The notes below the pieces were generated by a model that saw only the letters and a program-made list of their open reading frames with translations, ran no database searches and was not told the DNA's origin. A DNA stretch of 64,000 bases. Source: Paracyclopina nana. Lineage: Eukaryota > Arthropoda > Copepoda > Cyclopoida > Cyclopettidae. This document shows positions 12-44,300 of this stretch, piece by piece (the first letter of the stretch is position 1; each line of letters begins with the position of its first letter). The position numbers and the translations under genes are program-made. The stretch covers positions 2,936,501-3,000,500 of the forward strand of contig JAGUCH010000007.1 in the NCBI GenBank assembly GCA_019096065.1, in the 5' to 3' direction.

Positions 12-407
12 TACAGACTGTCCGTTCAAAATTGGACGGTATAGGAATCTAAACTTTGTGTCACACATTCAAGAAATACAGGACTTAAAAAATGATATCG
101 TTGGAAAGATTGAGTCTTTTCCCATCTTTTTTTTGTGAAAATAGAAAAATCAATTTTAATGGGAAAAAACCGAGAAAATTCAATTTTCCCAAGGCAACCC
201 AAAAAATTGTCGCGAAAAGAACTGATGCATCAATTATTTTTTGCTGTCACGCGGAATTCATACTAATGTTTTTCATTTTGTCAGAAAACAAAAAAGATGT
301 CCAAAGGTTCAAGCTTTCCAACGATACCCATTACGCCCCGAAATTCACGAATTTATAACACAAACTTTTGATTCCCGCACCGTCCAATTTTAAACGGACA
401 GACTGTA
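12..407. mobile_element. MITE, mariner-type, with TA target duplication
   Basis: The two ends are inverted copies of each other over about 55-60 bp: CAGACTGTCCG at 14 reads inward, and its near-copy CAGTCTGTCCG reads inward from 405 on the other strand. Both ends are followed by the same blocks (AAAATTGGACGGT, GGAATC, TTTGTGT). A TA dinucleotide flanks both sides (12-13 and 406-407), as expected for Tc1/mariner-class elements. The 392-bp interior has no transposase, so it is a non-autonomous copy. An 88-codon open frame inside it looks like chance. Confidence 0.85.
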
Positions 408-789
408 TAGTCAAATACTACGAGGAATATGATTTTAATAAAATTTTTCGAAAAATCCTAAAAAAAATTTTGAAATGGATAAACGACCGAGAAAATACAG
501 GCCGTTTGTCTGGTTGGGTGGGTGCATCTGGATACGTAGTATAAGATTTGCATAACTGATACAATTACAGTTTGAATTTTGGTATGACACCCTGCATGTT
601 TATGTGCTCTGCATGTTTGCATATGCTCAATTACTGGTATTTTTGAAACTCTGACATATCATGGGTAATTGTGGTATTTTGTCAATAGCACAGGCTTCAT
701 TGATCATGGGCAGAGACCGCTCGCTTTCTCCTCTGCAGCGGCGAAAGAAGGCCGCGAAGGACGGCGGCCTTCGCCGTTCGGTGTGGTAT
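408..789. other. Intergenic DNA upstream of the neuropeptide gene
   Basis: AT-rich sequence with no supported gene. The last part, about 710-785, is GC-rich and palindromic (GCGGCGAAAGAAGGCCGCGAAGGACGGC) and lies just upstream of the TATA box, so it may be promoter-proximal control DNA. Confidence 0.5.
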
Positions 790-796
790 TATAAAT
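790..796 (+). promoter_or_regulatory. TATA box of the neuropeptide gene
   Basis: TATAAAT at 790-796 is followed about 30 bp later by a TCAGAC stretch (about 822-827), which fits an arthropod initiator (TCAGT-like). A likely untranslated first exon then ends at a consensus donor (CAC|gtaagc, gt at 858) and an acceptor at 924-925 lies directly before the C-ATG start. The intron would be 68 bp. Confidence 0.65.
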
Positions 797-926
797 CGAG
801 GGCAGCCTCAGCCTCGAGTCTTCAGACAGACAAAGGCCCAAAGTGGCAACACATCACGTAAGCAATGATCCCCCCCAAAAAATGTTGTGTAACCTCTTTA
901 TTTTTGAAGGCCTTTGCCACCTGAGC

Positions 927-1988
927 ATGAATTCGACTTCAACTAGCAGCAGACTGTGGGCATTGACATTGGTCAAGATCTGGCTTTTTTCCCTGGTTCT
1001 CGTGGTTTGTGAGGCCACGCCGCTCTACGACAACGCCGAGTATGAGGTATATAAATACTTTGATGCAGCATTTGCATGGGCATTGGATTAATTACGGTGA
1101 TCATAGGATGCTCCGGTAGATGAGGAGGCCAGGTACTTCAGCCTCGAGGACTACCTCGCGAGGCTGATGGCGGCCAGGAACGGCCTCTACGGGCCGTACC
1201 ACGAGGGCAACTACGGCGAGCTGATGGTGCCGGACTTGGCGAACGACAAGCGATCCTCGTCGCGGGCCGAGAACAATTTCCAATTGAGGGTTCGCCGAGG
1301 CCAGGGCTTCTCCAAGCCCATGGCCGAGTCCAACTTTCAGTTGCGCGTGCGGAAAGACCTGTTGGACAGGTTTCGCCAGGTGCCTCAAATTAGGTCGTCC
1401 GCTGCCGAGAGCAACTTCCAGTTGAGGGTTCGCAAGTCACACCCGAGCATGGCTGAGAACAACTTCCAGTTGCGAGTGCGAAAAAGTGACGAGCGCCCAT
1501 CGGCAGAAGAGGAAGAAGACTTTTTCGGGGAAAATCGGTGAGATGACGCAGCCAACTTTTATTGGGGCTGTACACTCATGCATTATTCTCAGGTATCGAC
1601 AGGTGCCTCAAATTAGGTCGTCCGCGGCCGAGAACAATTTCCAGTTGAGGGTTCGAAAGGGGTTCCCGAGCAGTGCTGAGAACAATTTCCAGCTGAGAGT
1701 GCGCAAAGCTGACCCGTACATGCTGAGCGAGGAGGAAGACGGCGACGACAACAGGTTAATAGCTTTTGCTGCCGCGATCAAATCACCAAAGCCTAATTAC
1801 ACTTGTAAACGCGTTGCAGGCTGCAGAGATCGGTGAGGAGGACGCTGCTTGAACAGATCCGGGACAGGCGATTGTCTGGACAGCGGTCAGCTGCTGAGGA
1901 CAATTTCCAGCTGAGAATCAGGCGAGGCAACAGCGCTCACGACAATTTCCAGCTGAGAGTGCGAAGGTCAGCTGAGTTAGCTGCCTAA
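927..1988 (+). CDS. Multicopy neuropeptide precursor (NFQLRV repeats)
   Basis: Exons 927-1046, 1107-1537, 1593-1754 and 1820-1988 join in frame to 293 residues. Residues about 10-29 form a hydrophobic signal peptide. The body carries eight copies of a short motif ending NFQLRVR or NFQLRIR followed by K or R, usually preceded by AEN, AES or AED. Each copy ends in dibasic residues (RVRR, RVRK), the usual convertase signals; spacers are acidic or Ser-rich. The trimmed products would be peptides such as SAENNFQLRV. There is no Gly before the basic site, so the C-terminus should not be amidated. The first large exon also carries an acidic spacer with a YFSLEDY segment. The architecture (signal peptide, repeated core, dibasic sites) is that of a secreted neuropeptide precursor; I cannot assign the peptide to a named family. 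Confidence 0.85.
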
Positions 1989-3119
1989 TCTAGAATATTG
2001 GACAAGACCAAAAACACACATTTAATCCTCCTTGCTATACAATACTGTAATTCTATTTTTTTGCCCAAAAACTGAACATCGTCATTGTTAGCCCCGATAA
2101 TTTGAATGCCAAAAAATACATTTGAGCCCTGCTGATTATTATTACATACTATATACGACATTACTGTAGTCCAAGCCAGCCTTAGTTCAATCTCAATACA
2201 TAAAAAAGTGAATTGCTCGCTTCCTACAACTCTCTTGATCATGTGGTGATGGTGTTTTGCGACCTACTACATATAAAAATAAATTATAATAATGAATGAC
2301 TGGTAAGGTGGATTTGGCAGCCCCCAACGTTATTTGTGGTAGCTTTTTCCATACATGAACTATAGAAAAAGTAAGTAAAACTTCTTCCACGCATCGTTTA
2401 CCATGAGCATCTCTCTATTTTCTCCTTTGTCCACGTTTGTTGCTCCTCACACTCCATCATATGTACATAAACAACAAAAGCGTGTTGAAACAATTGAATA
2501 AAATGCAAATCTAAGCTGAAGAAGCTCAGCAAGCATCTTTGCTTTTTTCCGTTGTTCTTGGCAAAATCCAATTTTCACCAGAGCAAGAAATGAAATGTAC
2601 ATTCAGAAATGGAATAATACACAATTTTGGGAAACAATTGTATCGCTGCAATAAATAATCTGTATTGTGCACAGCGTGTACCAATGCAATAGCGCTGTCC
2701 ATATTGTAGTATTAATTTGGCTTGATTCAGGAAATTCATCTTACTGCATCCGCGACTGGATGAAAAGGTGATATTTGAGAAAATACTACATCGATTGTTG
2801 CCATAAGCAGCACTTAATCAGCTCATCAAACAGACTTTTTGCCTGATCTCTTCCATTTATCATGGCACAAAATAGACATTTCTCAACAGAAGCTATGCTT
2901 TTATGAAAGTGTGATTTTTTGTGCTCACGTGTCATTAAATGAAGTGTTCTAGGTGAAACGCAGCAAATTACGCTGTCAAGCAAAGACTAGCTCACTTACT
3001 TTTTGGAGTGAAAATGTGTGAACGAAATCCCCTCATTTCTTTCTCTTTTTTTTGGCTTCAGGAAATGAAATGCATTTTTCGCTATTTTTAGGCTTTATTC
3101 CAAAGCAAAGTGCAGCTTC
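1989..3119. other. Intergenic, 3' side of two convergent genes
   Basis: The stretch lies between the neuropeptide gene (+) and the HGSNAT gene (-). AATAAA-type signals occur (for example 2499-2504). No coding, RNA or repeat feature is supported. Confidence 0.5.
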
Positions 3120-6100
3120 TTAGACAGAAATAAAGGCCCTGTTCCTGTGCATGACGTATGCCACTATTAACCAGGCTGAAGTGCCCCAAAGCGACTCAAC
3201 CAGTTTGTCCCAGTGGGTATTCATGGGGCCAGAGATGTAGTTGAAGGGAGCCATTTGCCAGGCTATGCTGTGTCCCAAATACAAAACAATCGAGTTCATG
3301 CCTGAAAGTGATAAATTCCTCACGTTACAAGCGTGGTACGAAAAAAAGAGCTTCTTGCACTTGCCAAGAGAAAGACGAGCCAACCGCATATATTATCGAA
3401 TACTTCATATACTACTATGGTACGTCATAGGGAAAGCACTGCTTCACTGCCATTTACTTTAGTTTTATGTCACAAAAAACAATTGTCACAAGTTTCTAAC
3501 GATTATTTTTACGAATGCTGCACGTGTGGCTTTCATCTATAGAGCATTTTTGAGCTCGTGTTCTCGGGCAATTTCACTATACAGTTAATGGCGCAAATTA
3601 AACCAAATCACGTGAATTCTCCAGAGAAATGGCGCGCAATTTGGTGCCTCTTCTGCGATGTAATGAATGATATAGGAAATTGACGTCACACCAAAGTGTG
3701 GCTTTAGAAAAAAAGGGAAAGCCTTCAAAGTGGAACCAAAAGAAGGAATTTTTAAGCACATGAAGTACGACATAAAAGAGCACTATTTAGAAATTATGTA
3801 ATATGTGTGTTCTGCCCGCAGATGGCGCTCTTTTGTTTCAATTTCATCCATTTTTACCCAAAATTTGAACTAAGGCGCGGTTCACCTGGTAGAATGACGC
3901 GTCATTATGGCGCGATATTACAAAATATCGGAGCGAAATAAAAGGAAATATCGAGACTTTATTATTTTAGGCAAAGGGTTTCGATCCCAAAAGAGCAAAT
4001 TCAAAGAAAAAATTCGTAAAATGATTTTGCAAATACCCGATATTTCCAAATATCCTCATAATATCGCGCCATAATGACGCGTCATTATACCAGGTGAACC
4101 AGGCCTAAGAAGCTTAATGAAGATGTTTAGGCTATTTTTAGATGGACAAAAACTGTTGTAGGATTTAGAGTCAAGGTGAACATTTTGTTTGATAGAAGTA
4201 TTACAATTTTTTGAAATTAAAATGCATGATTTGAGTAACTTGTTACCTGCATAAATGAATGGCTCGCCTTGCCAAACATGGTAAGCATCAACGAGGGCGT
4301 ACACGGCGGCCATTAATAAGAAAGCCGCTCCCGTCGTCACAAAAACGAATGACAGCGACCTGAGTTATGAGCAAGTTACCAAAAAATGTACCACAATTAA
4401 TAGTGGCAAGTATACCATAGATTCTTGTTAATTGGAATTAGGCCTTCATCCCTGGTAGCCCCATTAAGTGCAAAACCAATTGCTCCATTTAGCAGGGCCC
4501 AAATCACAAACCGAATCAGCCGGCCTTTATGGCCTTGGTAAGACATAATGATCTGGCCTGCTTGATAGCCCAGAAAAACCTGAAGCACCGATGTGAAAGA
4601 GCCTAGAATGGAAGGTTGGAAGCTGGATGGTTCCAATGGAAAAATGAAAACTACCCAGGATTCCTTCAGGGTCAAAAGGCCCAGAGCCATAAACGAATTT
4701 GGCCGTAGGATTGCCATAAATGTGATTGGAGCCAAAAAACACTCGATCAATGTATCCAGCAGCTCCTCCAACGCAATCAACTCCATCATACGAACTATCA
4801 TCAAAAAGTCCTCCAGGTCCCAAATATCCTGAAATATTCATAATAGCATTTTTTGAGGGAAATGATCAGTTATTATCCAGGACTGATAAAAATTGTAAAA
4901 AACCCTGAAGCTTCAGTTTTTGCCCCCCAAAAAAGAAGCAATCACAAAAAGTGATAGAGTTACTGACGTTGCCATTGACGATAACTTCAATCAGAAAGAA
5001 AGGCCCAAATAGAGCCGCAGAGAAGCATCAATGTTTAAAAAAACTTTCTTTTTGCTCTTAGCTCAACTTGATTAGCATATTTCTCATGAAAAGTTCTTCC
5101 TTCACTGTTATTGTTTAGGTCCAATTTATCTAAGAAGTCACTTTGATGTGCCATGCTTTTTTAGCAAACAATATGCTGGGAAAATATGAATGCTCCCCTA
5201 TTTGCATTACAGTTGCTTTCACCAGCCGCCAGAGGAAAACTCAATTTCAACTCTTTAGCTACTACAATGGTATACGCTACTCTTTGCTCCTCCTTTCGTT
5301 TTGGCTGTTTTCGTTCTATGCTACAGATTTATTGCTTCTACCTGTTGGGCAATTTGGCACAGGCATCGCAAATGTAATCAGGCAATGAGCCGCAACAAAT
5401 ATGGCGGCCACAATCCAACGTTGCCACAGGCACAAAGCATCTGTAAAATGTGACAGGATTTTGCTCTGGTTTCCATTTTCCTGCAAATGAAAAGAAACAG
5501 TGATCTAAACATTGGACAAGTCCGAGCGTACGTTACAATCTGGTAACTCATCCCAAACGTAAACAAAAACAAACACGTGTTTTAACACGTTGTTTGCTTC
5601 CTGGTGAAAAAGCGAGTATATCTAGATATTTTGGCGGTTGTTTGGTGCCGAGGTAAGTCCTTCTTTTCATTTTTCAACATTATAAAGAGCTCAGCGTGAA
5701 ACTTGAGCCTTGGGCGGGCGCGTTAAAGTGCACATGGAAAGGAATATTTACATCTTTTTTGTCATCCTCTTCACTTGGCATAAATACCAATCCGGTCGTT
5801 GCAACGACAAAGTAGGTGATTGAAAATCGCTGAAGAACTCCAGGCACTCTCAGCAATTCCAAATTTATCCAGCCTTCAAAAAAATTGTTGAAAGTGTTGA
5901 AAGGCATTCCTGAATAGAAATGTTGATACCGATGGTATTCCAAAAGAATCCCAGCATGAAGAGCTTGACTGATCGCTTGCAAATGCCGATGAAAACGACA
6001 CCCTTGGGCTCCTTTCTTCTCAAGACACTTGATCTCAATGACATTGGAATGGCCACTCCCATGATCCACAAAAACCTGCAAAATTGAGATCAAAAGCCTT

Positions 6101-7223
6101 TGGTGGAAGCGAGCACAAGAGAAAGTAATCAAACAAATAACAAGGCTCTCTTTGCTCCAACTTTCACACAAGCAGCTTTTTGGTATTCTTGAACAAAGTT
6201 GGTGTCATTTGCAGCAACTTTTGGAATGAAGCTGTCAGCCAACAATTAGATTTCTAGCTGTGAAAAAATCACCATGGGAACACCAAGTCTGCCACTTGCA
6301 ACCCATTCCATGTGGCATGCTCCAGAAACCAGTAACCACCTGCTCCATCATTGACAAAGATCATCAGTGCAATGGTGATTCCTCTGAATGTATCCAAAGA
6401 ACGTATCCTGGCTTTCCCTGCATTATTTAGAGCACTTGTTGCTGCCCTTTCGTCCAGCTCAACCTAAAGCGAAGACTTTTTAGCTGTGTTTCTAATTTGC
6501 TGTCGCGTTCAGCTCAAACCTCATATCCTATTTGACGTTGAGCACTTTTGAACAGCCTTTCAATTTGGCGAGTGTATCCTTTTCGCACCACCAGCCATTT
6601 GACCAAATTATGAAGGAGGCCAAGAGCTGCCAATATCAGAAAGCAAACCAAAAGAGCCAGTTTGTCATTGACTGGGTCAACCAGGGTTTTCACTGGGCCA
6701 CACTGGTCAGCAGCAACCTTGATGTTGTACACTCCAAATTCACCCAGAACCACATCGTTCACTCCACAAATCGTTGAGCTGTGCAAATACCATTGAGTGA
6801 GCTGAACTGTATTTTCAATGAAGCTAAGTACTTATCTGGCCTGAATTGCGATACGTATTCGCCTGTGCCGCTGTTCCTCACCAGGAAATGCCAGGGGTAA
6901 TGAGTGGAAAGCTTGAAAATGTGATTTCCGTCGATGCTGACCTTGAGGATAGTGCAAAAATTCAGCTTGAATTAGCGCCCTGTTTGGAAAAATAATCTTA
7001 CGTCTGGCTCTTTTCGCTGAAATGGACATTTGTAGCAATTGTCTGATCTTATGTAGTAAAACACGTTAGAGATGGTTGACTGGAATCTAACGTACGCCTG
7101 AAATGTCAGAAAAAGAGCAGTTGAGAAAACAGTCGTGAAGGTCATGAATTTATTCAATACCTGATCAATTTGAAGGTGTGACAAGTCGAGGCCTTCGAAA
7201 ATATCGACATTGGGCTTCTCCAT
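3120..7223 (-). CDS. HGSNAT: Heparan-alpha-glucosaminide N-acetyltransferase
   Basis: Twelve exons read in order: 7161-7223, 7002-7097, 6855-6965, 6520-6801, 6273-6463, 5930-6075, 5752-5873, 5342-5480, 4655-4828, 4602-4416, 4247-4359, 3120-3301. They sum to 601 residues. HGSNAT is a lysosomal multi-spanning enzyme that acetylates the terminal glucosamine of heparan sulfate using cytosolic acetyl-CoA. Family signatures visible include [24 protein letters not shown] with the His matching the acetylated active-site His (about residue 233), ADLVFPW, RIPGVLQR-like [31 protein letters not shown] and a C-terminal [12 protein letters not shown] helix. Most introns are 50-60 bp; intron 11 (3302-4246) is 945 bp and holds a MITE. 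Length and order of helices match the animal family. Confidence 0.95.
3872..4109. mobile_element. MITE in intron 11 of HGSNAT
   Basis: The ends are inverted copies over about 45 bp: GGTTCACCTGGTAGAATGAC near 3880 and its complement at 4080-4100, with the palindrome ATGACGCGTCAT and the block GGCGCGATATT in both arms. About 238 bp, no coding capacity. A decayed relative of the right half lies at 33244-33332. The outermost bases (TAAGGC / GCCTAA) also pair, so the exact target duplication is unclear. Confidence 0.8.
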
Positions 7224-8365
7224 TTATAAGAAGCTGCTTCTGGTTGATATCTTATCAAAAGATATTAAGTTTACTGTAAGGATTAAGCCCACAGCTTGTT
7301 TTTCCCTCTATGTTTTGATGCAGCGCGCGCGCGTATCAGCCCTATAATATACTCTCGTACGCATTTCCACATGTGCGCAATGTGGCGGTCATCTACTTTG
7401 GACGAGGTAAAAGTTTCATTTTTCTATGTAGCAATGTGGCTAAATGAGCCACGTGGTCCTTGACGAGTTTGCATTTTCTCTTTTATAACGGCGTTGAGTT
7501 ATGAGTGTGGATTACTTTTATATTTTTAGCTTCTTTCAGATAAGTGTTTCAAAGTGCCATTTTTACGGATTAGCTTGCATTCTAAATTCGCGTCAGAGGA
7601 CCTAAGAAACCACGTTCATCTGCAGCCAAATGAGGAATGTGTGATGAATTTTGGCTTTTCCTGCCCGCAAAATTAATTGGGTGTTGTTAAGTTACGTTCA
7701 TCCAACGAGTTCCACTAAACGCTTGAGGAGCTCTTCTATTTTTTGAACAGTCTGGCTGCCATACGTAAGCAAGTGAGTCATTACCTAAATATCACGCTAA
7801 GATATACAGTGAGACTTGCCATTCTTTTTGTACAAATACCTTACTTTTGAATGAACTTTTCAGGGGTTTAATCTTTTGAAGCGCACTTTGAAGTTGGTAG
7901 TTCATCATTTGAAAAAGGAATGCTTCGTTTTTGCAGTGCATAGCTTGAATTCCTCAAGTGCATTCGCATATTTGGGCAAATTAAACCAATTCATGATATT
8001 TTTATAAGCTATGCAGTGGAATGTAATTCAAGAACGGAAGCACTTTTGGTGGTTTTTTTTCGCCTCGGTTAAGTGTGTACAAGCTGCAGATTGGGGTTTT
8101 ATTTCACGCTCTTACATCAGTAAATATACTATGAAAACTCCCCGCTGAGTCTCAGATCTGAAAGCATCTAAAAATGAAAACTTGGAAAAATGGCTTTCTT
8201 TTGTAACAAAAGCGATCTCTCAGTTGGCGGTCAGCTTTTAGCTTCAATAAACAGTTATTCATGAAGGCCTTTTTTTCTTGAATGGTTCTTGCATGAATTA
8301 ATAACGAGCAGTAGAAATGTTTTTAGATCTGAAGCACATGGGGATGTTAAAAGAAAATCAAGTAA
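7224..8365. other. Intergenic, upstream of HGSNAT
   Basis: This DNA separates the start of HGSNAT (-) from the 3' end of bursicon alpha (-). A short GC alternation (GCGCGCGCGC) lies near 7323. No coding or repeat feature is supported; the promoter of HGSNAT should lie at its left end. Confidence 0.5.
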
Positions 8366-14904: not shown

Positions 14905-16126
14905 TGTGCCAAAAATACTACAAATAAAAAACTAGGGCCTCCTGCTTCTTTTGGTGAGTTTTCAGCTGCTGCCTGAGAGGCCAAGTGAAAGCAGCAGGAT
15001 CAGCTGAGGCTCTCCTTATAGAAGTAGGCATGGATACAACCTGCTTTCTAGGCCCCTTTTCTACTAAAAATCTTGCTGATGCAATACTTTTAGGTCTTCA
15101 AGCGAGCCTTTGATACTTAATTGGGCACATTTTGCCAAGTAGGCAAAATTAAGATTTAGGATCTCGAATTTAGCCAAATAGAAAGCTTAATTGGCCTACA
15201 TTGATTTTGAGTGGACTTATTTATAGCTGACTAATTGAGGAGAAAATCATTATCATCATTGTCATGCCTTAACAAGCATTCATGACTGACAAAAAAAGCA
15301 ATTCTCTTTCTTAATAGTTTGCACCTTTCTTCAGCTTTCAAGGAAAGAAGCAGGAGCTCATAATTTGAGGCTTGCTCAAGGTAACGCCTAGTAGTTACAT
15401 ATCAGTCACTTTTGTGTCAAGAGACAAAACTTTTCGAAAAAGGCAGACACTTCAGGCATCTTTTTAGTTCAGCTATCAACTTCTGACATTGTAATAGATA
15501 CCTTTGTTAGTGAGTTTGAGATTAACTTTAGTCATTCAAAGGAAGTGGAAGGTCAAACTAGCGAGATAGAACTAAGATACAATTATTATTTCATGATTTT
15601 GAGGCCTAAGAAAAAAGCCATTTTGGTTCAGAGTAACAAATGAATCAGGTTGCTCTGCCTGCATGTCATTATTATTCAGGTAGAGTCTAAAATGATTCTT
15701 TAATACGAGTCATTATTAGGTGGCCTCATGAGGCATTACACTACATCTGACCTTTGCCCATGCCAAAGCCTTCACAGAGAAGTGCGTGAAAGCTCCGAAG
15801 AAAAGGCCAAGAATCTCAGAATGCATACTAATGGTGCTTCTGAGTTGGTGAAAATCCCAATGATGCCCACCCAAACAAGAAAAGTGCTTGTTAAGAAAAG
15901 TAAACCAAAATGCCTGGAGGAAGTAAGCAAGAATCATAAAACTAAATTGTTGAGTCACGTGGCTTCCTTTTAGGCTCATCTTGACGTCAAACAATTTTTA
16001 ATTGCCCTGCTACTGATTTGCTTGATTTTTGTGCTATCCAATTATTTCAACAAGGTGTTCCAAAAGCTTTTAATGATCCACGCATTGTGCTCCAATCCCA
16101 ACTCAGCCATTGAAGTGAGCATTAAT
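14905..16126. other. Intergenic, left flank of the transposon
   Basis: AT-rich sequence without a supported gene. On the minus strand about 15,720-15,990 carries two overlapping frames that encode hydrophobic stretches; I could not join them into an exon of a known protein. The region ends at the AAT target duplicate (16124-16126). Confidence 0.45.
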
Positions 16127-16162
16127 CCCAGCGAACCCTTTTTCAAGTCAGGTAGTTGAAAA

Positions 16163-16409
16163 GGAGTCAACGCAAAGCCAGTGAGCTTCGGAACTTCCAA
16201 AGCCATTTGGTATTATTATTTTGGTAACGCCATAGTCATACTAAAGTCAAGAGAAAAAATGCGTTCTTTTTGACTATTCAAAGCTATAAAGGAGTCACTT
16301 TTTTAAAGACCAATAGCACTGTTATTTTTTCAGCCAAATGCATTTAGAAGTCATGTTTTTGAAAAAGCAAATTGCTTTTCCGATGAGGTGTAAAGCCAAA
16401 AAGGAGTCA
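16163..16409. repeat. Subterminal GGAGTCA repeats (left end)
   Basis: GGAGTCA occurs in the same orientation at 16163-16169, 16291-16297 and 16403-16409, each preceded by A-rich sequence. The complement TGACTCC is at 23985-23991 near the right end, with ACTCCTTTTTGACTA at about 23910. Blocks around CCAAATGCATTT are also shared by both ends. In CACTA elements such subterminal repeats are the binding sites of the TNPA-type accessory protein; that role here is inference. Confidence 0.55.
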
Positions 16410-16648
16410 TTTATTAAGGCCAAACCATGGCCTTTGAAGGAGCCTTTTTTAATTTGATTACTAAACGAATACTAAAGTTGTTCAGCACAGAATTGGTCAT
16501 GTAATTTTTTTATTTGCATAAATGGCCGCTCATAAACATGCACAGAAATGTTACGCGTCGTAATGACTATTTTTTAAAAAATACACATGACTTAGTAAGT
16601 TATAAAGTAGTAGCAAAATTTTTTTCATGCATGCTTGTTGGCAAGGCT

Positions 16649-19600
16649 TTATTTCTTCTTAGCAATTCGTTTCTCAGCCAACTCCTTGATGCTTCTTTCA
16701 ATTGCCAATTGATGGGCAATCTCAGAGGGATGGACAGAGCTGCCAGTTGGGATTCCAAGAAGCTCTTCAGTGGGATCATGAGCCTGAAAAGGTTAAGGAT
16801 GTATGAATTCGTTTGAAAGGCGATAAGATTTTTAATTGAGTACGAATTTTGAGTATGTCTTTTTTTAAATTATGCAAAGGATTTTGGAAAGCAATGTTAT
16901 TCATGATTGAAAAGGAAGAATAGGGGCTTACTGGCGGAGTTGGAGACTCATTTGAAGCTCTTTTGGAGTCACTGTTGTCTTCAAGCTCAGGAGGGGATTC
17001 AATGACTTCTTGAACCTCATCGCTATCCTCATCTTCTTCCTCCTCTTTGATTTCCTCTATTTCCTCTTCTTCCACTTCTTCTTCCAATCCTTCGCTATCA
17101 TCTTCAACTGAGGTTTCACTGCTGTCCTTTTTCTTGCCTTTGGCAGGCCTTTCGTCATCATCTTCATCGGACTCATCGGGAGAAGATTTGATGCGCTCCA
17201 TGAAATTGGGATCATGTGGATACTCGCGGAGCAATTCATCCAATGAGTTGATGTAGTCAGCTTGGACCTTCTTGTAGATCTCTTTCACCTATAAAGAAGA
17301 GCATAAATAACTTCGAAATGCATTTGAAATTTAGTTAACTCACATCAGGAACGCTGTCAATGGGGTCCCATGTCAGCTTAGTGATGTCCATTTTCCTTGC
17401 AGCAGCTGAAGCAACAATGCATTTGATGGCCTCATATTTGCTCCAAACTTTCCTAGTGTGAGCTGCGCCACTGAAGCCATTGAAGACTTTGTCAGGGGTC
17501 TCAAAAACTCTGCCATCCTCCCACTTAGACTCCTCGTCATTGGCTTTCAAAGCCTTTTTGGCTTCAGCGCGCTTCATAAGCCTTTCCTCATAGGCATCAC
17601 GCTGGTCAGGCTCAATGGGAGGAATTGCGTGCTGTAATAGAAAGTCGTTTGTAAACCAACTGGGAGTTTGCGTTAGCATTAGCACTTACAGTATTGTTGA
17701 TGTAAAACTCATTGTCAACCGCAAAAAGCGCATCAATGCCTTCTTTTGCCGTCCAGGTCTTCTCAAAAGCCCACTCAATTTGCTTGGTGCGACAGTTAGT
17801 GTACCTCTGGCTAATTTTCTTTCGAATGACTTGGTAATTTTCCAGGTAGGTTTCTCCACGAAGTTCCAATTCCTTTCGCACATAGGGGATGATGTGATTC
17901 TTAATCACTCGCTCAATTGACTCTGGGGCAGTTCTTTTGAAATACTGAACACGATCCAAACTAAAAAACATTAAAGTAGTTTCGAAGCTGCAAAGAAGGC
18001 AATTTAAAAATGATACTCACGATCTGGGCTGCTTCCAGATAAGGTGAGCCATTCCCATTTTGGTGAAAAATGCATTTGTGAATGCAAAGGCAATTTTCTT
18101 GTTCACCTTTGACCTGATGCCAGTAAGGCCATCCTTCATGAAGTGGACAATGTTGTCCTGAACGTAATGAGACGCAAAGAAGATGTCACAAGCTGGACCC
18201 ATGATTTCAAAGGGAATCAATCTTGAAAGAATGCCATTTGAGCGAGAAATGATGTCTGCCTCAGATTCCCGCATCTTAGACATCTCAACCCTAATATTGG
18301 CACTCTCAATGCTAAAGTCAGAAATGGCTTGTTTGATGATGGCCATATCCTCCATGAGTTTCTAAAAGAGACATCGAAAGTCATTTGGGATTCATTAGAG
18401 CAAAACATTTAGTTACCGTCAATGCAGCTCGTTTGGCTGTAGCATCATGGGCCCTTCTTACTTCAGCAGTGACATGCTCTCTCAAGTTCTCTTGCAGTAG
18501 TTGAAAGAATGGGACAATTTCCTCATGCAAAACTTCTTTAAACATCTCTCGCATGGCAGCTTTCATCACATCAGAGTTGGCCTGGGCATTCATATGATCA
18601 GCAAGAAACTTTGTCATCCGCACATCCATCATTTCGTCCGTGAAAATGGTTGCAGTTGTACATGTGACCATGTCATCATTAGGCTAAAAAACAATAGTTT
18701 TAATTCGTTTAAAAGTTGATTAAAAGTCACTTACATCTCCTTGGATTGGGACATAGTACTCAGCATGAGTTCCACTGCCAGCTGGTTGACTAGGCAGATC
18801 TTGCTCCATTTCCTCCTCTTGTCTTGGCCTTTGAACCTCAATTGGCTCCAAAGTTGGCCTTTTGGCTGGGCTTGCTCCAACCTCTTCCGTGATAGTGACA
18901 CTGTCAGATGATGAGTCACTGCTTGCAAGCAACTTGCGCTTACGAATGGCTTTCGAAGGTGCTTCTTTAGCAGCAGTTTTTTTGGCTGCTCCTCTTGTCA
19001 TAGGTGCTGATGACTGAGACCGCCTAATTGCCTCAGCAATTTTCCTTCCAGGTGGTGGCTTTTCGGCAGAGGCTTTAGGAGAAGATGCAGCCTCCTTACC
19101 CTTGACAATTGAGACAATGGGTGGGTACTTCACTCCCTTTGTTGCAGCTTTTAAAGGCGTTTTTCCCTTCTTAGGAGTGATTCCAGTGCTTTGGGTCCCA
19201 GATGCCGGTGTGCCAACTGTCTTGGTGCTGCTTTGGGAAGAGGGAGTAAAGAACGGATTCTTCAAAAGATCGGCTGGAGGATTCTGAAATACGAAATCTA
19301 AAAATAAACTTTCAAAGGAATTTATATTGTGTTCTTACTTTCGTAGGAGTTGGAGCCAGACTTGATGTGGCAGATGAGGACTTCCTTGCTCCTTTCTTTG
19401 AGGTTCTGACAAAGTCTGGGTCAGAATCGCTGTCATCCTCATTGCCTGTGGTTTGTGGCAACTGCTGAACGGCCGTTTTGCGAGTTGCAACTCCCTTCCA
19501 TGAGTGAAAGGTCATAATTCCGGTAATAGGGTTCCTTTCTGGATAGTCCCAGTCCTTCATTAGCTTCTCGCTGAAGTTTTTGATCAGCGTGACCTTCATA

Positions 19601-20023
19601 AGGCTCCTTTGCTGAACGTTCAAATTCCTAAAACGCTTGTTGAGCATTTCAACCAAATCTGTGATGCGGCGCTCATCCGTACCTGAAAGTGACTTTTTGT
19701 TAGTTTTCGAACGCCTTTGAAAATATTAACAGCTTACCAGCTTGAACCCGGCAAAACACCGATAGCTCCAAAGGCCCGTCACACTTGTCGAGCACAAATT
19801 TACCAATCCTCATTCTCTTGGCATCACTTAACTGCGACGTCGGGTCGAATTGCATAATGGACTTAATTGAGTCGCCATTAAACAATTGCTCAGCAGGAAT
19901 AGTGGAGACAGGATCGTCTTGCTTCAAATTGATGACAACTAGAAGGTCGTAGATGGTGCCCTCCTTCTCCGGAGGAGTTGTAACTCCTTTCTCCTTTGCC
20001 TTTACGGCCGTTTTGGGTGGCAT
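16649..20023 (-). CDS. Transposon accessory protein (TNPA-like position)
   Basis: Nine exons: 19738-20023, 19339-19682, 18735-19283, 18417-18683, 18021-18361, 17690-17960, 17344-17631, 16932-17288, 16649-16783; 945 residues, every junction in phase. I recognise no named domain. Residues about 95-160 form a helical block with NVQQRSLMKVTLIKNF and TGIMTFHSWKG. Then come a Ser/Thr/Pro/Lys-rich low-complexity linker (about 180-390) that looks nuclear, a helical block that may form a coiled coil (about 400-600, NLREHVTAEVRRAHDATAKR), a basic segment (KKISQRYTNCRTKQIEWAF) and a Glu/Asp-rich tract (about 830-880). The gene lies inside the transposon, divergent from the transposase, 770 bp apart, so it is probably the second mobility protein that binds element ends. 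An unrelated host gene carried as cargo is the alternative. Confidence 0.75.
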
Positions 20024-20795
20024 TTTCTTTTCAAAATGGCTAACGCACAATTTTTTTTTTGGCTACGAAAGTACGTCCGCTCGCGTTGAGAGCTACGCAG
20101 CGACTGGCAGCTGTTGTCTGGGCAGGCTGCCTAAATTCCGCCAAATTGTTGGGCCGTTAAGGCTGGTGCGGCCGGCGCTGGCTGCTTGCATTGGCTGCCA
20201 ACGCTGCCAATTTTTTTTACGCCAAATCAGCGGGGGTCACATCGACTTCTAAGTGACTCTAAAATAGTCACTTTTTGAAATCATGAAAATGGATGATATT
20301 ATGAATACAAAACGAGTTAAATTTTTTTTTTGGAATAATTAGACTTAAAAAAAAGTACAGCATTCAACATAATGAAATTAAATTGATCAAATTTCAAAAA
20401 TTACATAACGCATATTTTTAGTGCCGCCATTTTAATGACTTTCAGTTTAATTTTTGAGGCATTTGCTGCGTTTATCTGGCCAATGTTTTAAGTCTGAATT
20501 ATCAATGCCACATCAGGGGTTCATTTAAAGCAATAACATTGCCCACTTGACGATACAAAACGCGGAAAATTGAATTTTAATTTAGAAAATATGAAGAAAA
20601 ATGAAAGGGGCGACACGAAAAAATATATTCATTTTTGATAATTTCTTTTTGAAATCATATTTTTTAATTTAAAAAAAACCAATTTGAGCACAATATTTTT
20701 TTAAGTTTTTTATTCACATTTTTATTTTTTTGGATCGACTTTTTCTAGAAGATTTGTAGGTTACAAATTCAGCTGAACATCGGAAAAAATCCAAA
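20024..20795. promoter_or_regulatory. Shared divergent promoter region of the transposon
   Basis: These 772 bp lie between the start codons of the accessory gene (-) and the transposase gene (+). The left 200 bp are GC-rich (GCCGGCGCTGGCTGC) and the rest is extremely A/T-rich. TAGAGTCACTT and AGTCACTTT copies of the subterminal-like motif are at about 20,250-20,275. No TATA box is obvious. Confidence 0.45.
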
Positions 20796-23755
20796 ATGGC
20801 GAAAGGAAAAAAAGACTCATATTCTAAGCACTACAAAGCTGCTAAGCAAGCAAAATATCGTTTGAAACTGAAAGAGGCTCAAAGAGAACTTCGACTAGTG
20901 CAACTGCGATGCGCAAATAGGGTGCGAGCACTTCAAGAGATTCAAGGAGAAGTTAATAGTGAAACGTGAGAATTTTTTTTTTTTTCCTACGTTACATTTC
21001 AAATGAATTTATTGTTAGGCGGACAGATGAGATGTTTGGGGTGCACCTTGAATTGTGCCCATTCAATGAAAACGATCCAGAAATGATCGACAAATGTGTT
21101 GCCAATATTGATGCTGCTGTTGATGATTTCGATGACGATAACAACGATGACTACGAAAGTGCTTTGGAAGAGCAAAGTGAGGAGGATGGACAAGGCAATG
21201 AAAACGAAAAGGTGTACGACTCAGATGCTTTAAAAAATAATGAGAAAGTGATTCGGAAGTTGTTGAAACGTAAGTTGGCAGAAGTGAAGGACCTGAATCC
21301 CGATGATGACACTCCTGAATTTGACAATGATGAGATCTTGGAATACCACATGACTCATGATGGTCAAAGCCTTGATACACCAACATTTGAGAACTCTAAA
21401 CGTGCCAAATATTCTGAAACTGATGAAGAAGGGTATGACATAATTGAGCCAGTTGGAGCAAACCAAGAAGCAGTAATCATCAATGATGAAAGCGTTCTGA
21501 GTAACAGAAACCAAGAGCGAGCAAAGGACTTTGAAACTCAAAAAGAAGTCGATGAGCATGAGACACCAGACTTGAATGCCACAGAAGCAGTTTCGAATCA
21601 CAGTAAGGATGGAGATGGCATCGTGACTACAGGCATTGACTGCAGTAGCCAAGGCTCAAGTAACACATCACAAATATTCATCGAAAGAGCTCCAGTCATG
21701 CATGACACACGAACTTTGGATTTTGATGCAAATCTAAGTAACAATGATGAAGGAGATGACCAAGTGAATGCTGACACACTTTGGAGCTCATCCGAGGATG
21801 AAATTGAAAACGAAATTGAGGAAGTTTACTATGACTGCGAGGAGGAGCTAGAGGAAGAAAGGCAGCGATTGAATGATCCAAGGGAAGACAATGCTATTTT
21901 GGTGCATGGCACAACAAAACGTCACTTTCAAAATGCTTTAGAAGAGGAGGAAAATTTGCCAACCCAACAAGAGAAAGATTATGCTTTATACTCACGCTTC
22001 TTCTTCCTCATCTCAATTTTGGCATGCACTTTTCGCCAGGCTCGTGTTTTCTGGAATTTTGCCTGTGCATTTACAACTCGTAAATTATTGACTTTTAAAG
22101 CCATTCGAAAAAGATTTGAAAAACAGATTCCTAAAATAACGATGACGTATGAGTTCTATGATGTGATAACAAAGGAAGTGCGACATCATGTGGGAACAAC
22201 TTTTCCAAGGAAAAAGTATCCTCGACCCCGATACTTGCTTTTGTCAGAATGGTCCAATGTTTCAATGGAGGACTTATACAATTTCTTCCTTAGTGTGCAT
22301 CCAAATGACTTTAAAAGTGAGATAAATGGCAAAAAATACATTGACCTTTTTCTAGACGGAGTGCCTTTGTGCAAGAGTTCAGATGCCTTAATGAATGTGC
22401 TGTGTGTTCGCTTCAACCCTTGCCGAAAAGTATGGCCGCTATCCATTCATGTGTACAGAAAGGGAAAAAGCACTGACATTGTCGACCTCTGCTCCCAAGT
22501 GCTTCAAGAATGCCTTGATAAGAAGTTTATAGTTCGAAAATTTATAGGTGATAGCCCTATGCGGGCAAAAATGAAGTCATTAACGCAACACAATGGATAT
22601 TGTAGTTGTGAGATATGTAAATGCCAAGGAAGGTACCTGGAAGACTACCACAAAATGTCATTTCCTGCTGATACTTATGGGGCCCCAAAACGCACACATC
22701 AAGAATGGCTCCAAACGGCTTTGAATCTTTCAGAAAATCCACTCAGAGTACCAAAAAAGAAGCGATTCGGCATCAAGGGGTACAGCCCACTTTTGGATCT
22801 TCCCTACTTCGACATAATTCAAGATTTTCTACCAGATCCTATGCATAATATAGCTCTTGGTGTTTGTAGGCAACTAATGCAGTGCATTTTGGAGACAAAA
22901 GGAAGTGCAGTAACGTCTACAAAAGGCGTTTCGATTGCGAATGCATTTGACGAGAAGTGGGTGGAACTTCCAATCCCTAGAGAGTTCCCTCGCAGGCCCA
23001 GAGCAATCAAAGGGAATTTTGCTCACCTAAAAGCATCTGAGTTTATTGCTATTGCCTGCTGTGGATTCACATTATTTGCCGATGCCTTATTACCATGGCC
23101 CAAAGGCCTTCGAAAGGTGTGGCTTCGTTTTTCGTGGATTGTCCATGCGGCCCTAATGCCGGACATTGTGTATAAGAAAATCATGAATGATGAAAAGGCG
23201 TTCCAATTGCACAAAACATTCTATCTAAGTTTTGAGAAGGTTATTGGTGCCAGTCAGTGCAGCTTCAACATACACACATTCAGCCATCTCCTGGAAATAA
23301 GAAAACTTGGGCCGTTATCCGATTTTAGTGCAATGCCCTTTGAGAGTTTCTTTTCTTATCTCAAAAAAATTATAAAACCATATACACTAAGTTTTGCCAA
23401 ACAGTGCCTGCTAAAGTCATTTATATGTAATATGAATACCCACTCATGTGGCTACAAAGTCAGCATAACTCCAAACACAAAAAAGCGATGCATTGACAAC
23501 TTAATTGGAACGGTTGATGGAAAATTCTACTTTGTTCACAACTATGACGAGGAGTTTTTTGAGTGCAGTGAAATCAAAACGACTTCCTACATCACACCCG
23601 AGTGCCCAGAGTTGAATTGGGATGAAGTAATGGTTAAGGTTGTGGATCGTTATGACAGTGAACTTGTGGACATTCAAAGAAAAGATGCAATTTTCAAAGG
23701 TGTAATAGCAGATAACATCATCATTTCTGTACCAAACGATGTGTACTTTACTTGA
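20796..23755 (+). CDS. Tnp2/CACTA-type transposase
   Basis: Exon 1 (20796-20965) and exon 2 (21019-23755) join in phase to 968 residues. The N-terminus is basic and helical, followed by a long Asp/Glu-rich region (about 90-350). The catalytic region shows the DDE landmarks of the Tnp2/Plavaka group: LFLDGVPL (Asp about 503), FIGDSPMRAKM (Asp about 568), a Cys cluster HNGYCSCEICKCQG, LPDPMHNIALGVCR, and PFESFFSYLKKIIK (Glu about 832). These enzymes cut at the terminal repeats and move the element by cut-and-paste. The frame is fully open and the element ends are intact. Whether it belongs to EnSpm/CACTA, Plavaka or a separate animal branch needs a tree. Confidence 0.85.
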
Positions 23756-24185
23756 AATGCATTTGAAAGATAAAAAGTACTTATTAAAAAGATTTAAAAA
23801 AGCAAAAACTCTTATCAACTTATTTTTGACTAAAAAATGCATTTAATTGTTAAAATTAATATTTTAGTTAACTCGGAAAACAGTTAGCCAAAGAATCTGT
23901 TAAGTTCAAACTCCTTTTTGACTATCAAATAATGAGTTACCTCATAGTCACAAAAAAGCCATCCTTTTTTTCAATTTTATTTAGTGACTCCTATTTGGCT
24001 CCAAAAAATGCATTTGGAATTAAGTTTTCAAAAATTGAAAAAAACTAATTTGGATAAATGAGTTTGTAAGTAATTATTATCTACTTCGTAACAGCTTTTT
24101 CTGAATGACTACCCCAAAGTTATTTCGATGTCAAAAAAAAGTAATTTTGCATTTTACTTTTTCAAGAAAAGGGTTCGCTGGGAAT

Positions 24186-41364: not shown

Positions 41365-44300
41365 ATGTCAGAGGCATCGGAAGAAATATCTATTGCTTCT
41401 GCATCAGTTCGGCCTTTAACGGGATCCACGAGGCCATTGAATAATGGCGGAATCAGACTGTTCGGCTGCAGACTGAGGCTGGCCTCAGACGACTTTGTCT
41501 TGCCAGCTTGGATCACGTTTCTAGTCAGAATGGGCTTTTTTGTGACGACAGCAGCAATCATGTCATATTCCATGCAAATTGTCAAAGTGGGCCAGTCTTG
41601 CATTCGCCTGCACAACCTGGACATTTACATGCCCCTCGAGCTTGCAATAATCGCCGTCAATGCGGCTCTTTGTTTACTGTTGGCGTTTCACAGTGCCAAA
41701 GGAGTCATTTGGGATGACAACCCAACATCAAGGAGGTAATGACTCTGCAAAACCACGCTTATTTACTTTTAAAAAGTTGTCACATTGAAAGTGGGTAAAA
41801 TTGTTGGATCTTGTATATACTGCAATACGGTTTCCCCGTTTTATAATTCAGTTTACCGATCCGACTCAGCTCTTTTATGTGACAATTCTTTCGAAGCATT
41901 TTATGGCCCAGGAATCAAATTTGAGGGATGTGCAGTAATTTTATTCCTCCGGAAAGAATTCAGAAAAAAGGGAAAGGACAATCTAGATTCAAACCTCAGA
42001 TAGTTGAATTAAGATACCAATGCTCAAACCACTGCACTGAGCTTTCGAACCTTCATGTAGGGTCTGGTCATCTTTGGCTTTTTGTCACTATGTAACAAAA
42101 ATTGACACATACTGCAATGAAGTTACCAAAATTTGTCACATCGCAACACAGCACAACTCAGACGGACACAAAGAACAAAGTTTGTTTTGCTTCATAAGTT
42201 ACCAGTGTAAACAGAAAGTTACACTTGGCAAAGTTGGGCTCTTTTTGCTAAGAAACTGGAACAATTAGTCGAGTCATCTGGTTAAGTTTGTTTTGTTTGC
42301 TAGTTACATGGTCATCTGCTTGTCACTCCTTGACACTATTCTTTGGGGCTTTCCATGTGGTGCTTTTTTGACACTAAGTTACCAAAACTCGACACTACAA
42401 TCAGTTCTAAATTTTCCAAGTTACCGAAATTTGTCACATCACAGCACAGCACAACACAACACAAGCCAGATGAACAAAAGCATAAAAGTTTGTTTATCAT
42501 GAAGAGTTACCAGACTAAGCAGAAATTCGTATAGCTGAAATTGGTGTTTTTTGTGAGAAAAAGGGGATAAATGAATTGAGGTATGAAATAAAGTGTGTTT
42601 TGGTTGCTTGTTACATGTCCATCTGCCAGTCACTCCTTGACACTGTCACTATTGTGCATTGCATAGCACACAGTTACCATTTTTTGACACGATCACTCAT
42701 TTACTATTTGTTGACACACCACATGGAAAGGCCCTTTGTGCCATGAAGGGCCTTTCCATGTGGTGTGTCAACACACAGTAAATTAGTGATAGTGTCAAAA
42801 AATGGTAACTGTGTGCTTTGTAATGCGCAATAGTGACAGTGTCAAGGAGTGACTGGCAGATGGACATCATGTAACAAGCAAATTTTCCAAGTTACCGAAA
42901 TTTGTCACATCACAGCACAGCACAGCACAACACATTGGGGACATTTGCCCTCGGGGACATTTGCCCTCGGGGACATTTGCCCTCGGGGACATTTGCCCTC
43001 GGGGACATTTGCCCTCGGGGACATTTGCCCTCGGGGACATTTGCCCTCGGGGACATTTGCCCTCGGGGACATTTGCCCTCGGGGACATTTGCCCTCGGGG
43101 ACATTTGCCCTCGGGGACATTTGCCCTCGGGGACATTTGCCCTCGGGGACATTTGCCCTCGGGGACATTTGCCCTCGGGGACATTTGCCCTCGGGGACAT
43201 TTGCCCTCGGGGACATTTGCCCTCGGGGACATTTGCCCTCGGGGACATTTGCCCTCGGGGACATTTGCCCTCGGGGACATTTGCCCTCGGGGACATTTGC
43301 CCTCGGGGACATTTGCCCTCGGGGACATTTGCCCTCGGGGACATTTGCCCTCGGGGACATTTGCCCTCGGGGACATTTGCCCTCGGGGACATTTGCCCTC
43401 TGGGACATTTGCCCTCGGGGACATTTGCCCTCGGGGACATTTGCCCTCGGGGACATTTGCCCTCGGGGACATTTGCCCTCGGGGACATTTGCCCTCGGGG
43501 ACATTTGCCCTCGGGGACATTTGCCCTCGGGGACATTTGCCCTCGGGGACATTTGCCCTCGGGGACATTTGCCCTCGGGGACATTTGCCCTCGGGGACAT
43601 TTGCCCTCGGGGACATTTGCCCTCGGGGACATTTGCCCTCGGGGACATTTGCCCTCGGGGACATTTGCCCTCGGGGACATTTGCCCTCGGGGACATTTGC
43701 CTTTGAAGACCTTTACCCTTTTCGGACTTTTTTGAAGTTCTGATAGCTTGCTTTCAGCCTTTTATTTATCTTAAATCTGAATTTTGTCTGGTGTGCGTGT
43801 ACAAGGCCTTTTGATATACTGGACATAGTAAAAGCAACCATTAGAAGAGTCCCCATGGGCAAAAGTCCCCACAGGCAATAGTCCCCACAGCCATTAGTCC
43901 CCAAAGTCATAAGTCCCAAAAGTCAAATCTCTCAAAGTTTGTGGGGGCAAAAGTTTCCAAGGGCAGAAGTCTAAAGGGCTATAGTCCCCAAGGGCAAAAG
44001 TTCCCAAGGGCAAAAGTCCCAGGAGCAAAAGTCCACAAGGGCAAAAGTCCCCAGGGGCAAAAGTCTCCAAGGGCAAAAGTCCCCAAAGGCAAAAGTCCCA
44101 AAGGGAAAAAGTCCCCATGGGCAAGAGTCTTCAGGGTAAAAGTCCCAAAGGGCAAAAGTCTCTAGGGCAAATATTCCACAGACAAAAGTTCCCAGGGGCA
44201 AAAGTCTCATGGTCAAATGACTCCATGTGCAAACAGCCAAGGGCAAAAAGACCAAGGGCAAAAAGACCAAGGGCAAAAAGACCAAGGGCAAAAAGACCAA

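Follow-up and report, generated by a model that had tools for sequence, protein, structure and literature searches.

Within a 64,000-nucleotide stretch of the genome of the copepod Paracyclopina nana (contig JAGUCH010000007.1, positions 2,936,501 to 3,000,500, hereafter the window), positions 16127-24182 are occupied by an 8,056-bp transposon. It carries two divergent genes that point apart, a transposase of 968 codons in two exons on the plus strand and a partner gene of 945 codons in nine exons on the minus strand, running from 20023 to 16649. A match to the partner is found in about 25 related full-length elements of the genome, in nearly all of them beside a transposase match, which suggests that the family needs two proteins to move. 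The account that we favour as a whole, and consider quite probable, is that of a two-gene cut-and-paste element in which the partner acts in a TNPA-like manner together with the transposase.

For the window copy itself, our reading agrees with a first-pass annotation, which had described perfect 16-bp ends with an AAT duplication, a two-gene transposon and intact frames. The inverted repeats at the two ends match perfectly and AAT lies on both sides, our gene models reproduce the protein lengths and exon number reported there, and both genes are open with intact splice sites.

The divergent gene pair and its relatives in the genome

Searching the 91.95-Mb assembly (10 contigs), we found 54 exact occurrences of the 16-mer end CCCAGCGAACCCTTTT (29 forward, 25 reverse) and none of its backward-read control, so the ends exceed chance. 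The exact matches are mostly arranged as inverted pairs with a spacing of about 8 kb or of 1.1-1.6 kb; the first-pass annotation had proposed looking for inverted pairs about 8 kb apart, and many were found. Allowing two mismatches gave 97 matches against 85 for the control. Because such matches are mostly noise, pairing was limited to 71 of the 97 ends, namely the 64 that had one mismatch or none, plus 7 selected from the 33 with two. A looser end pattern, CCCAGNNAACNNT, was dropped as unusable, with 229/230 matches against 298/305 for the control.

The 71 ends form 34 pairs, 26 long and 8 short (1.1-1.6 kb). One of the long intervals consists of a short element (1,331 bp) with a full-length one inside it, so the long pairs represent about 25 full-length elements, among them the three of a tandem trimer on C2 whose ends carry two mismatches. 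Counting scored matches, a partner-gene match is present in all 25 paired full-length elements and a transposase match in 24 of them. The two gene-match scans scored 50 of 285 and 48 of 756 candidates, and absences are therefore weak; in the pairing of genes with ends, each element contributed a single match, drawn from 49 of 59 rows in the first scan and from 32 of 93 in the second. Six short elements of 1.3-1.6 kb (L023-L028) have the same ends and no transposase match, and weak partner matches occur in two of them only, L024 and L026.

Splice-aware alignment of the window partner protein to 15 full-length elements gave homology models with a largely constant architecture. In the window the partner introns are GT-AG and 51-148 bp long. 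Those at residues 96, 482, 596, 686 and 782 recur in 15/15 copies (with shifted phases in L017, whose model contains a frameshift), the intron near 393 recurs in 14/15 and that near 210 in 13/15, and the last intron is variable. On the transposase side, D503, D568, C587/C590, H809/H813 and E832 are invariant, with spacings of 65 and 264, in an alignment of 14 cores that combines 11 of the 15 copies (L009, L012, L015 and L022 left out) with L031, L037 and L032 from other clades. Because intron positions and catalytic residues recur across copies, both gene models are backed by comparison. By homology model, 11 of the 15 transposase genes are free of stops and frameshifts.

We compared the ratio of nonsynonymous to synonymous substitution rates (dN/dS) in 14 pairs per gene, setting aside transposase pairs with L009, L012 or L022 and partner pairs with L017 because of frameshifts or stops. 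In the one informative pair, L010/L016, where silent sites are unsaturated and no frameshift is present, dN/dS is 0.057 for the partner and 0.058 for the transposase; by this measure the partner of that pair is under purifying selection like that of its transposase. L015/L016 gives 0.057 and 0.055, which adds nothing further since L010 and L015 are near-identical. The other unsaturated values, each resting on few changes, are 0.076 (L013/L022), 0.111 (L010/L015) and 0.358 (L009/L012) for the partner and 0.103 (L010/L015) for the transposase; the remaining pairs are saturated at silent sites.

Furthermore, the two proteins diverge in step. Pairwise identities of partner and transposase correlate at 0.98 among 12 non-redundant CCCAGCG elements and at 0.95 with three others added, and 0 of 2000 permutations were as high in either set. 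No well-supported group in the tree of one protein conflicts with the tree of the other; the group of the window element and seven others is supported at 100/98 in the transposase tree and at 87/96 in the partner tree, where deep relationships rest on long, uncertain branches.

The same genome has two further transposase clades, 35-46% identical to the window core, and these have CCC ends too. In one of them (L031) the ends are CCCCACTAAGT; both copies read are flanked by AT on either side, an AT that could belong to the ends. The other has ends CCCCACCAGAATTTCT and duplications AA and TA. Termini were looked for in the L032 copy and not found. A divergent gene in L031, L037 and L032 aligns to the partner at 24-27% identity, with scores of 596, 355 and 156 over the whole protein (286 over the first 700 residues in L032). 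Twelve shuffled proteins scored -95 to -40, and three other controls -132 to -79. Partner intron positions are shared in phase at 6 of 8 sites in L031 and at three in L032; none is shared exactly in phase in L037, whose partner model contains two frameshifts and a stop. Because homologues occur in these two further clades, the partner looks old and looks to travel with the transposase. As a separate observation, the L031 ends (77-7824) have CACTA directly after CCC, and ends of this type are a possible bridge between TRC and CACTA ends.

Table 1. Features of the window element, with window coordinates, strand and basis of each call.
Feature	Position	Strand	Basis
Left target-site duplication AAT	16124..16126		Flank reading and insertion comparison
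Left terminal inverted repeat CCCAGCGAACCCTTTT	16127..16142	+	54 exact genome copies
Left subterminal region, AGTCA/TGACT-rich	16143..16576		Word count against shuffles
Partner exon 9, including stop codon	16649..16783	-	Gene model
Partner exon 8, acidic	16932..17288	-	Gene model
Partner exon 7	17344..17631	-	Both intron boundaries recur in 15/15 copies
Partner exon 6, conserved core	17690..17960	-	Gene model and copy comparison
Partner exon 5, conserved core	18021..18361	-	Gene model and copy comparison
Partner exon 4	18417..18683	-	Gene model and copy comparison
Partner exon 3, rich in Ser, Thr, Pro and Lys/Arg	18735..19283	-	Gene model
Partner exon 2	19339..19682	-	Gene model and copy comparison
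Partner exon 1, including start codon, conserved N-terminal region	19738..20023	-	Gene model
Intergenic gap, presumed two-way promoter	20024..20795		Position alone
Transposase exon 1	20796..20965	+	Gene model and copy comparison
Transposase exon 2, including stop codon	21019..23755	+	Gene model
Catalytic core D503, D568, C587-x2-C590, H809-x3-H813, E832	22355..23344	+	14/14 invariant
Right subterminal region, AGTCA/TGACT-rich	23733..24166		Word count, as left
Right terminal inverted repeat	24167..24182	-	End reading
Right target-site duplication AAT	24183..24185		Flank reading and insertion comparison

Target duplications, movement and genomic setting

In the first 22 insertions, the duplication is 2 bp in 18 and 3 bp in two (the window element and L020, both AAT), while L014 matches at 1 bp and the inner L012 element has no duplication. 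The 8-bp duplication that is a trait of Zisupton was found in 0/22. When flanks of different insertions were cross-paired as a control, a 2-bp match occurred in 39/462. All eight further insertions have a 2-bp duplication, bringing the total to 26/30; the count of eight omits the C2 tandem trimer and the outer C8 element, which is flanked by CT at each end. The AAT of the earlier reading is thus exact in the window copy, but atypical of a family in which 2 bp is usual.

Two nested or tandem arrangements are recorded here as observations in their own right. At L012 (101-9567), a full-length element lies within a 1.33-kb short element with four extra bases, TT..AA, compared with the uninterrupted L028 and L025. 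A head-to-tail trimer spans C2:2562768-2587671 (ends in L042-L045); its three elements are each about 8.3 kb long, have CCCCACGAACCCTTTT ends and are spaced by an identical 7 bp, TTAATAT. It may have begun with two insertions that landed within a few bases of each other and then been duplicated in tandem.

On C8, an 8,235-bp element is nested in a near-identical copy. The flanks of the host element, joined minus one CT, match the inner copy 120/120 and so give an exact empty site. Between the two copies, 6,609 aligned columns contain 2 mismatches and 7 gap positions, and another 1,628 contain no difference. This nest is a recent transposition with a 2-bp duplication, and the family has therefore moved recently. 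Near-identical pairs of elements reach 99.2% and 99.3%.

Among the 14 other copies compared, none is close to the one in the window. In piecewise DNA alignment its mean identity to other elements is 66-72%, the upper part of that range coming from stretches shorter than 700 bp, and the transposase core most similar to its own is 72% identical. Given these low values, the window copy is a lone lineage in this genome. Its joined flanks have no other match anywhere in the genome. The first-pass annotation had called the element young and possibly active: recent movement is borne out for its relatives, by the near-identical pairs and the C8 nest, but the youth of the window copy is not.

The surroundings of the element are ordinary in appearance. 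Between window positions 12472 and 58341 lie genes for a sugar transporter, a short-chain dehydrogenase, an ENaC-type channel and a class 3 lipase, and also for a PHD-type zinc finger, a band-7 protein and a nucleotide-sugar transporter (7 of 9 reading frames in the neighbour scan had a match). A 16-bp tandem repeat of about 48 copies with 99% match occupies 42937-43701, with long open frames on both strands, and is followed by a diverged array at 43945-44326. TTAGG, the usual arthropod telomere repeat, forms arrays at 4 of the 7 contig ends examined, which fits the arthropod host named in the earlier reading.

Place among CACTA-related transposons

The CMCT group (CACTA/EnSpm-Mirage-Chapaev-Transib and kin) is defined by a DDE triad whose second D and E enclose C(2)C and H(3-4)H (Kojima 2025, PMC12730594), and by duplications of 2-5 bp with termini CA..TG "in most cases" (PMC12730594). 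The window transposase contains the DDE, C(2)C and H(3)H signature and so matches the CMCT criterion. A stricter regular expression matched 13 of the 14 aligned transposases (L031 has D-T where the pattern asks D-S/A) and 0/14 reversed proteins. By motif, assignment to the CMCT clade, and hence to CACTA-related transposases, is supported. At the ends, duplications of 2-3 bp were observed and the termini are CCC..GGG rather than CA..TG; CCC was found in every element with ends read, both in the family and in the two further clades.

CCC ends are not new. TRC elements with CCC ends and 2-bp duplications were described from Schistosoma, Aedes (CCCAGTCAAC, 9.2 kb) and Tribolium (DeMarco et al. 2006, PMC1636069), and CCC-type ends CCCAGCCAACATTGAC from Hydra (Tang et al. 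2015, PMC4298943). The suggestion in the first-pass annotation that a CCC start marks a distinct branch therefore falls away, and its statement that CACTA elements rarely carry such a large spliced partner is not supported, since a second gene or reading frame is usual in CACTA elements (PMC4158355). CACTA families have also been reported in Daphnia pulex (PMC2884549).

The closest likeness is to TRC, which has CCC ends, 2-bp duplications, a CACTA-related transposase with CxxC and short internally deleted copies (PMC1636069). The Aedes ends CCCAGTCAAC differ from CCCAGCGAAC here at 2 of 10 positions (PMC1636069), and both the Aedes and the Hydra ends have CCCAG and AAC in common with the present elements. 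Spongebob (EnSpm-4N1_HM) of Hydra likewise combines CCCAGCCAACATTGAC ends with a 2-bp duplication; its transposase is unreadable there because of stops or frameshifts, and the accessible text of PMC4298943 describes no partner gene. SmTRC1 of Schistosoma is about 4.5 kb long and makes its proteins by alternative splicing, with one clone carrying two tandem reading frames, and its second protein has, according to the accessible part of that account, no detectable relatives in other TRC elements (PMC1636069). In contrast, the present elements have a separate divergent nine-exon partner in three clades, and no Transposase_21 match.

As in plant CACTA elements (En/Spm), there are two genes, a scale of 8 kb and a DDE transposase (PMC4158355, PMC1636069), whereas the plant ends are CACTA/TAGTG with a 3-bp duplication, against CCCAGCG and usually 2 bp here. 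The second protein of maize Spm comes by alternative splicing from one transcription unit, in contrast to the separate gene found here. Plant CACTA elements also have short repeats near their ends. Plavaka and other CMCT lineages make 2-3 bp duplications as well; Plavaka ends are TGT..ACA or CATCA..TGATG, and Plavaka was described from fungi with other extra genes (PMC12730594).

The box A motif [LVI]-D-x-[LM]-H-x3-L-G occurs literally in 1 of the 14 transposases, not that of the window, and its core [DE]-x-[LM]-H-x3-L-G in 14/14. TRC motif I, given in 2006 for "most of the elements", is found as printed in 0/14, and a looser ad hoc form in 11/14. The element behaves as TRC elements do and is very probably one of them. 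Since the Pfam domain and one printed motif are lacking, and since the likeness was drawn by setting ends, duplication and motifs beside published descriptions rather than by comparing TRC proteins, we file it as a TRC-like CMCT element.

Mechanism and alternative explanations

In the mechanism that we propose, the transposase would cut at CCC..GGG and insert the element at a target cut with a 2-bp, sometimes 3-bp, stagger. The partner would bind short repeats just inside the ends, like plant TNPA, bring the ends together and load or regulate the transposase. Short elements of 1.1-1.6 kb with the same ends are presumably moved in trans. We infer the TNPA-like end-binding role of the partner by analogy with the plant system. 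The subterminal regions of the window element together hold 14 AGTCA/TGACT words against a shuffle mean of 1.44 and a maximum of 6 in 1000 shuffles, for a motif picked after inspection, and element-specific terminal repeats were found in L009, L010, L014 and some others.

Several results weigh against this account. AGTCA is not confined to the ends, as 28 of the 42 words in the element lie elsewhere; in an unbiased scan the best 7-mer of the window was reached in 34/200 shuffles, its best 6-mer was the low-complexity AAAAAG, and L011, L017 and L020 had no clear end repeat. A subterminal word common to the family was rejected, as the best 8-mers occur in 10/12 elements and shuffles reach 10-12. 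Pfam, PDB-sequence and NCBIfam searches gave no assignable fold or DNA-binding domain for the partner, and its genes are free of stops and frameshifts in just 6/15 copies by homology model, a count made uncertain by the fast-evolving C-terminus. Outside the paired elements, just 5 of the 25 transposase matches lie within 5 kb of a scored partner match, and 2 of the 7 partner matches are without a scored transposase in their vicinity. No Pfam transposase family, including Transposase_21 (PF02992), was matched at E ≤ 1 by the window protein or the 14 aligned cores, and the TRC motifs printed in the accessible text of PMC1636069 are mostly absent when taken literally. Finally, the inner L012 element is nested without a target duplication.

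Pfam and PDB-sequence searches with both proteins, or with part-alignments, returned weak matches only, which we take as chance; the best were a Pfam protease model at E 0.0018, whose own cut-off was not reached in the row shown, and a PDB sequence at E 0.55. NCBIfam was matched neither by four single partner exons nor by the transposase core, and scanning viral and prokaryote contigs with the transposase alignment brought up no relative.

The partner could instead stand outside the transposition complex and counter host silencing or regulate transcription from a shared promoter. The 772-bp gap shared by the divergent genes would suit such a role, as would the finding of no DNA-binding domain in the partner, and some fungal relatives have TET/JBP genes for which a role in undoing silencing has been proposed (PMC12730594). 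However, in L010/L016 selection constrains the partner as strongly as the transposase, and 24 of the 25 paired elements show both genes, so a core co-factor suits the data better; we regard a counter-silencing or regulatory factor as unlikely, though with an appreciable chance. A host origin of the nine-exon gene, with the element transporting it as a passenger, would account for its size and intron content, which are large for a transposon gene, and for the partner matches at C2:13097608 and C1:8287142 that lack a scored transposase nearby and may be degraded elements, have unscored neighbours or be something else. Against a passenger of this kind, a partner match is found in every paired full-length element, the partner diverges in step with the transposase, and the C1 match has an equal-score twin on C3 that adjoins a transposase; we give this explanation hardly any credence.

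For the window copy, an old, dead or domesticated insertion would agree with the lack of a close copy, the low piecewise identity and the joined flanks that match nowhere else. The copy nevertheless retains intact reading frames, splice sites, ends and duplication, and domesticated copies usually lose their ends, which makes such an insertion improbable. It is more improbable still that the element is simply a plant-type CACTA/EnSpm, a Plavaka or a KDZ (Zisupton) element. It has C(2)C and H(3-4)H motifs in common with EnSpm and Plavaka (PMC12730594), but the ends are not CACTA, TGT or CATCA, the usual duplication is 2 bp and not 3 or 8, and the lack of any Pfam transposase family match applies here too. 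Neither the Plavaka profile PF18759 nor the KDZ transposase profile, which Pfam presumably holds, was matched at E ≤ 1 by the window protein or the aligned cores. Genome profile searches with PF18759 and PF02992 gave zero matches here and likewise in 14 control genomes, and so decide nothing. The "Tnp2-type" label of the first-pass annotation therefore stands by motif but not by Pfam family.

Relative to the cited papers, as far as their accessible text extends, what is new is the conserved, separately placed partner gene; the ends and the mechanism were already described. Within the open literature, with Repbase and subscription papers outside its scope, we recognised no report of a conserved divergent partner in CCC-ended animal elements. 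More tentatively than the two-gene account itself, and as a possibility that we hold somewhat more doubtful than not, we propose that CCC-ended animal relatives of CACTA move by an obligate two-protein machine, in which the transposase acts with a dedicated nine-exon partner of unclassified fold, co-inherited, with no swapping detected, from a time before the split of three deep clades. If this is true, the missing conserved second protein of animal TRC elements exists and is this partner. With about 25 full-length elements of graded divergence, a partner match in each and a proven recent insertion, both the need for the partner and its binding are testable, and the system may yield a two-part transposon tool from an animal.

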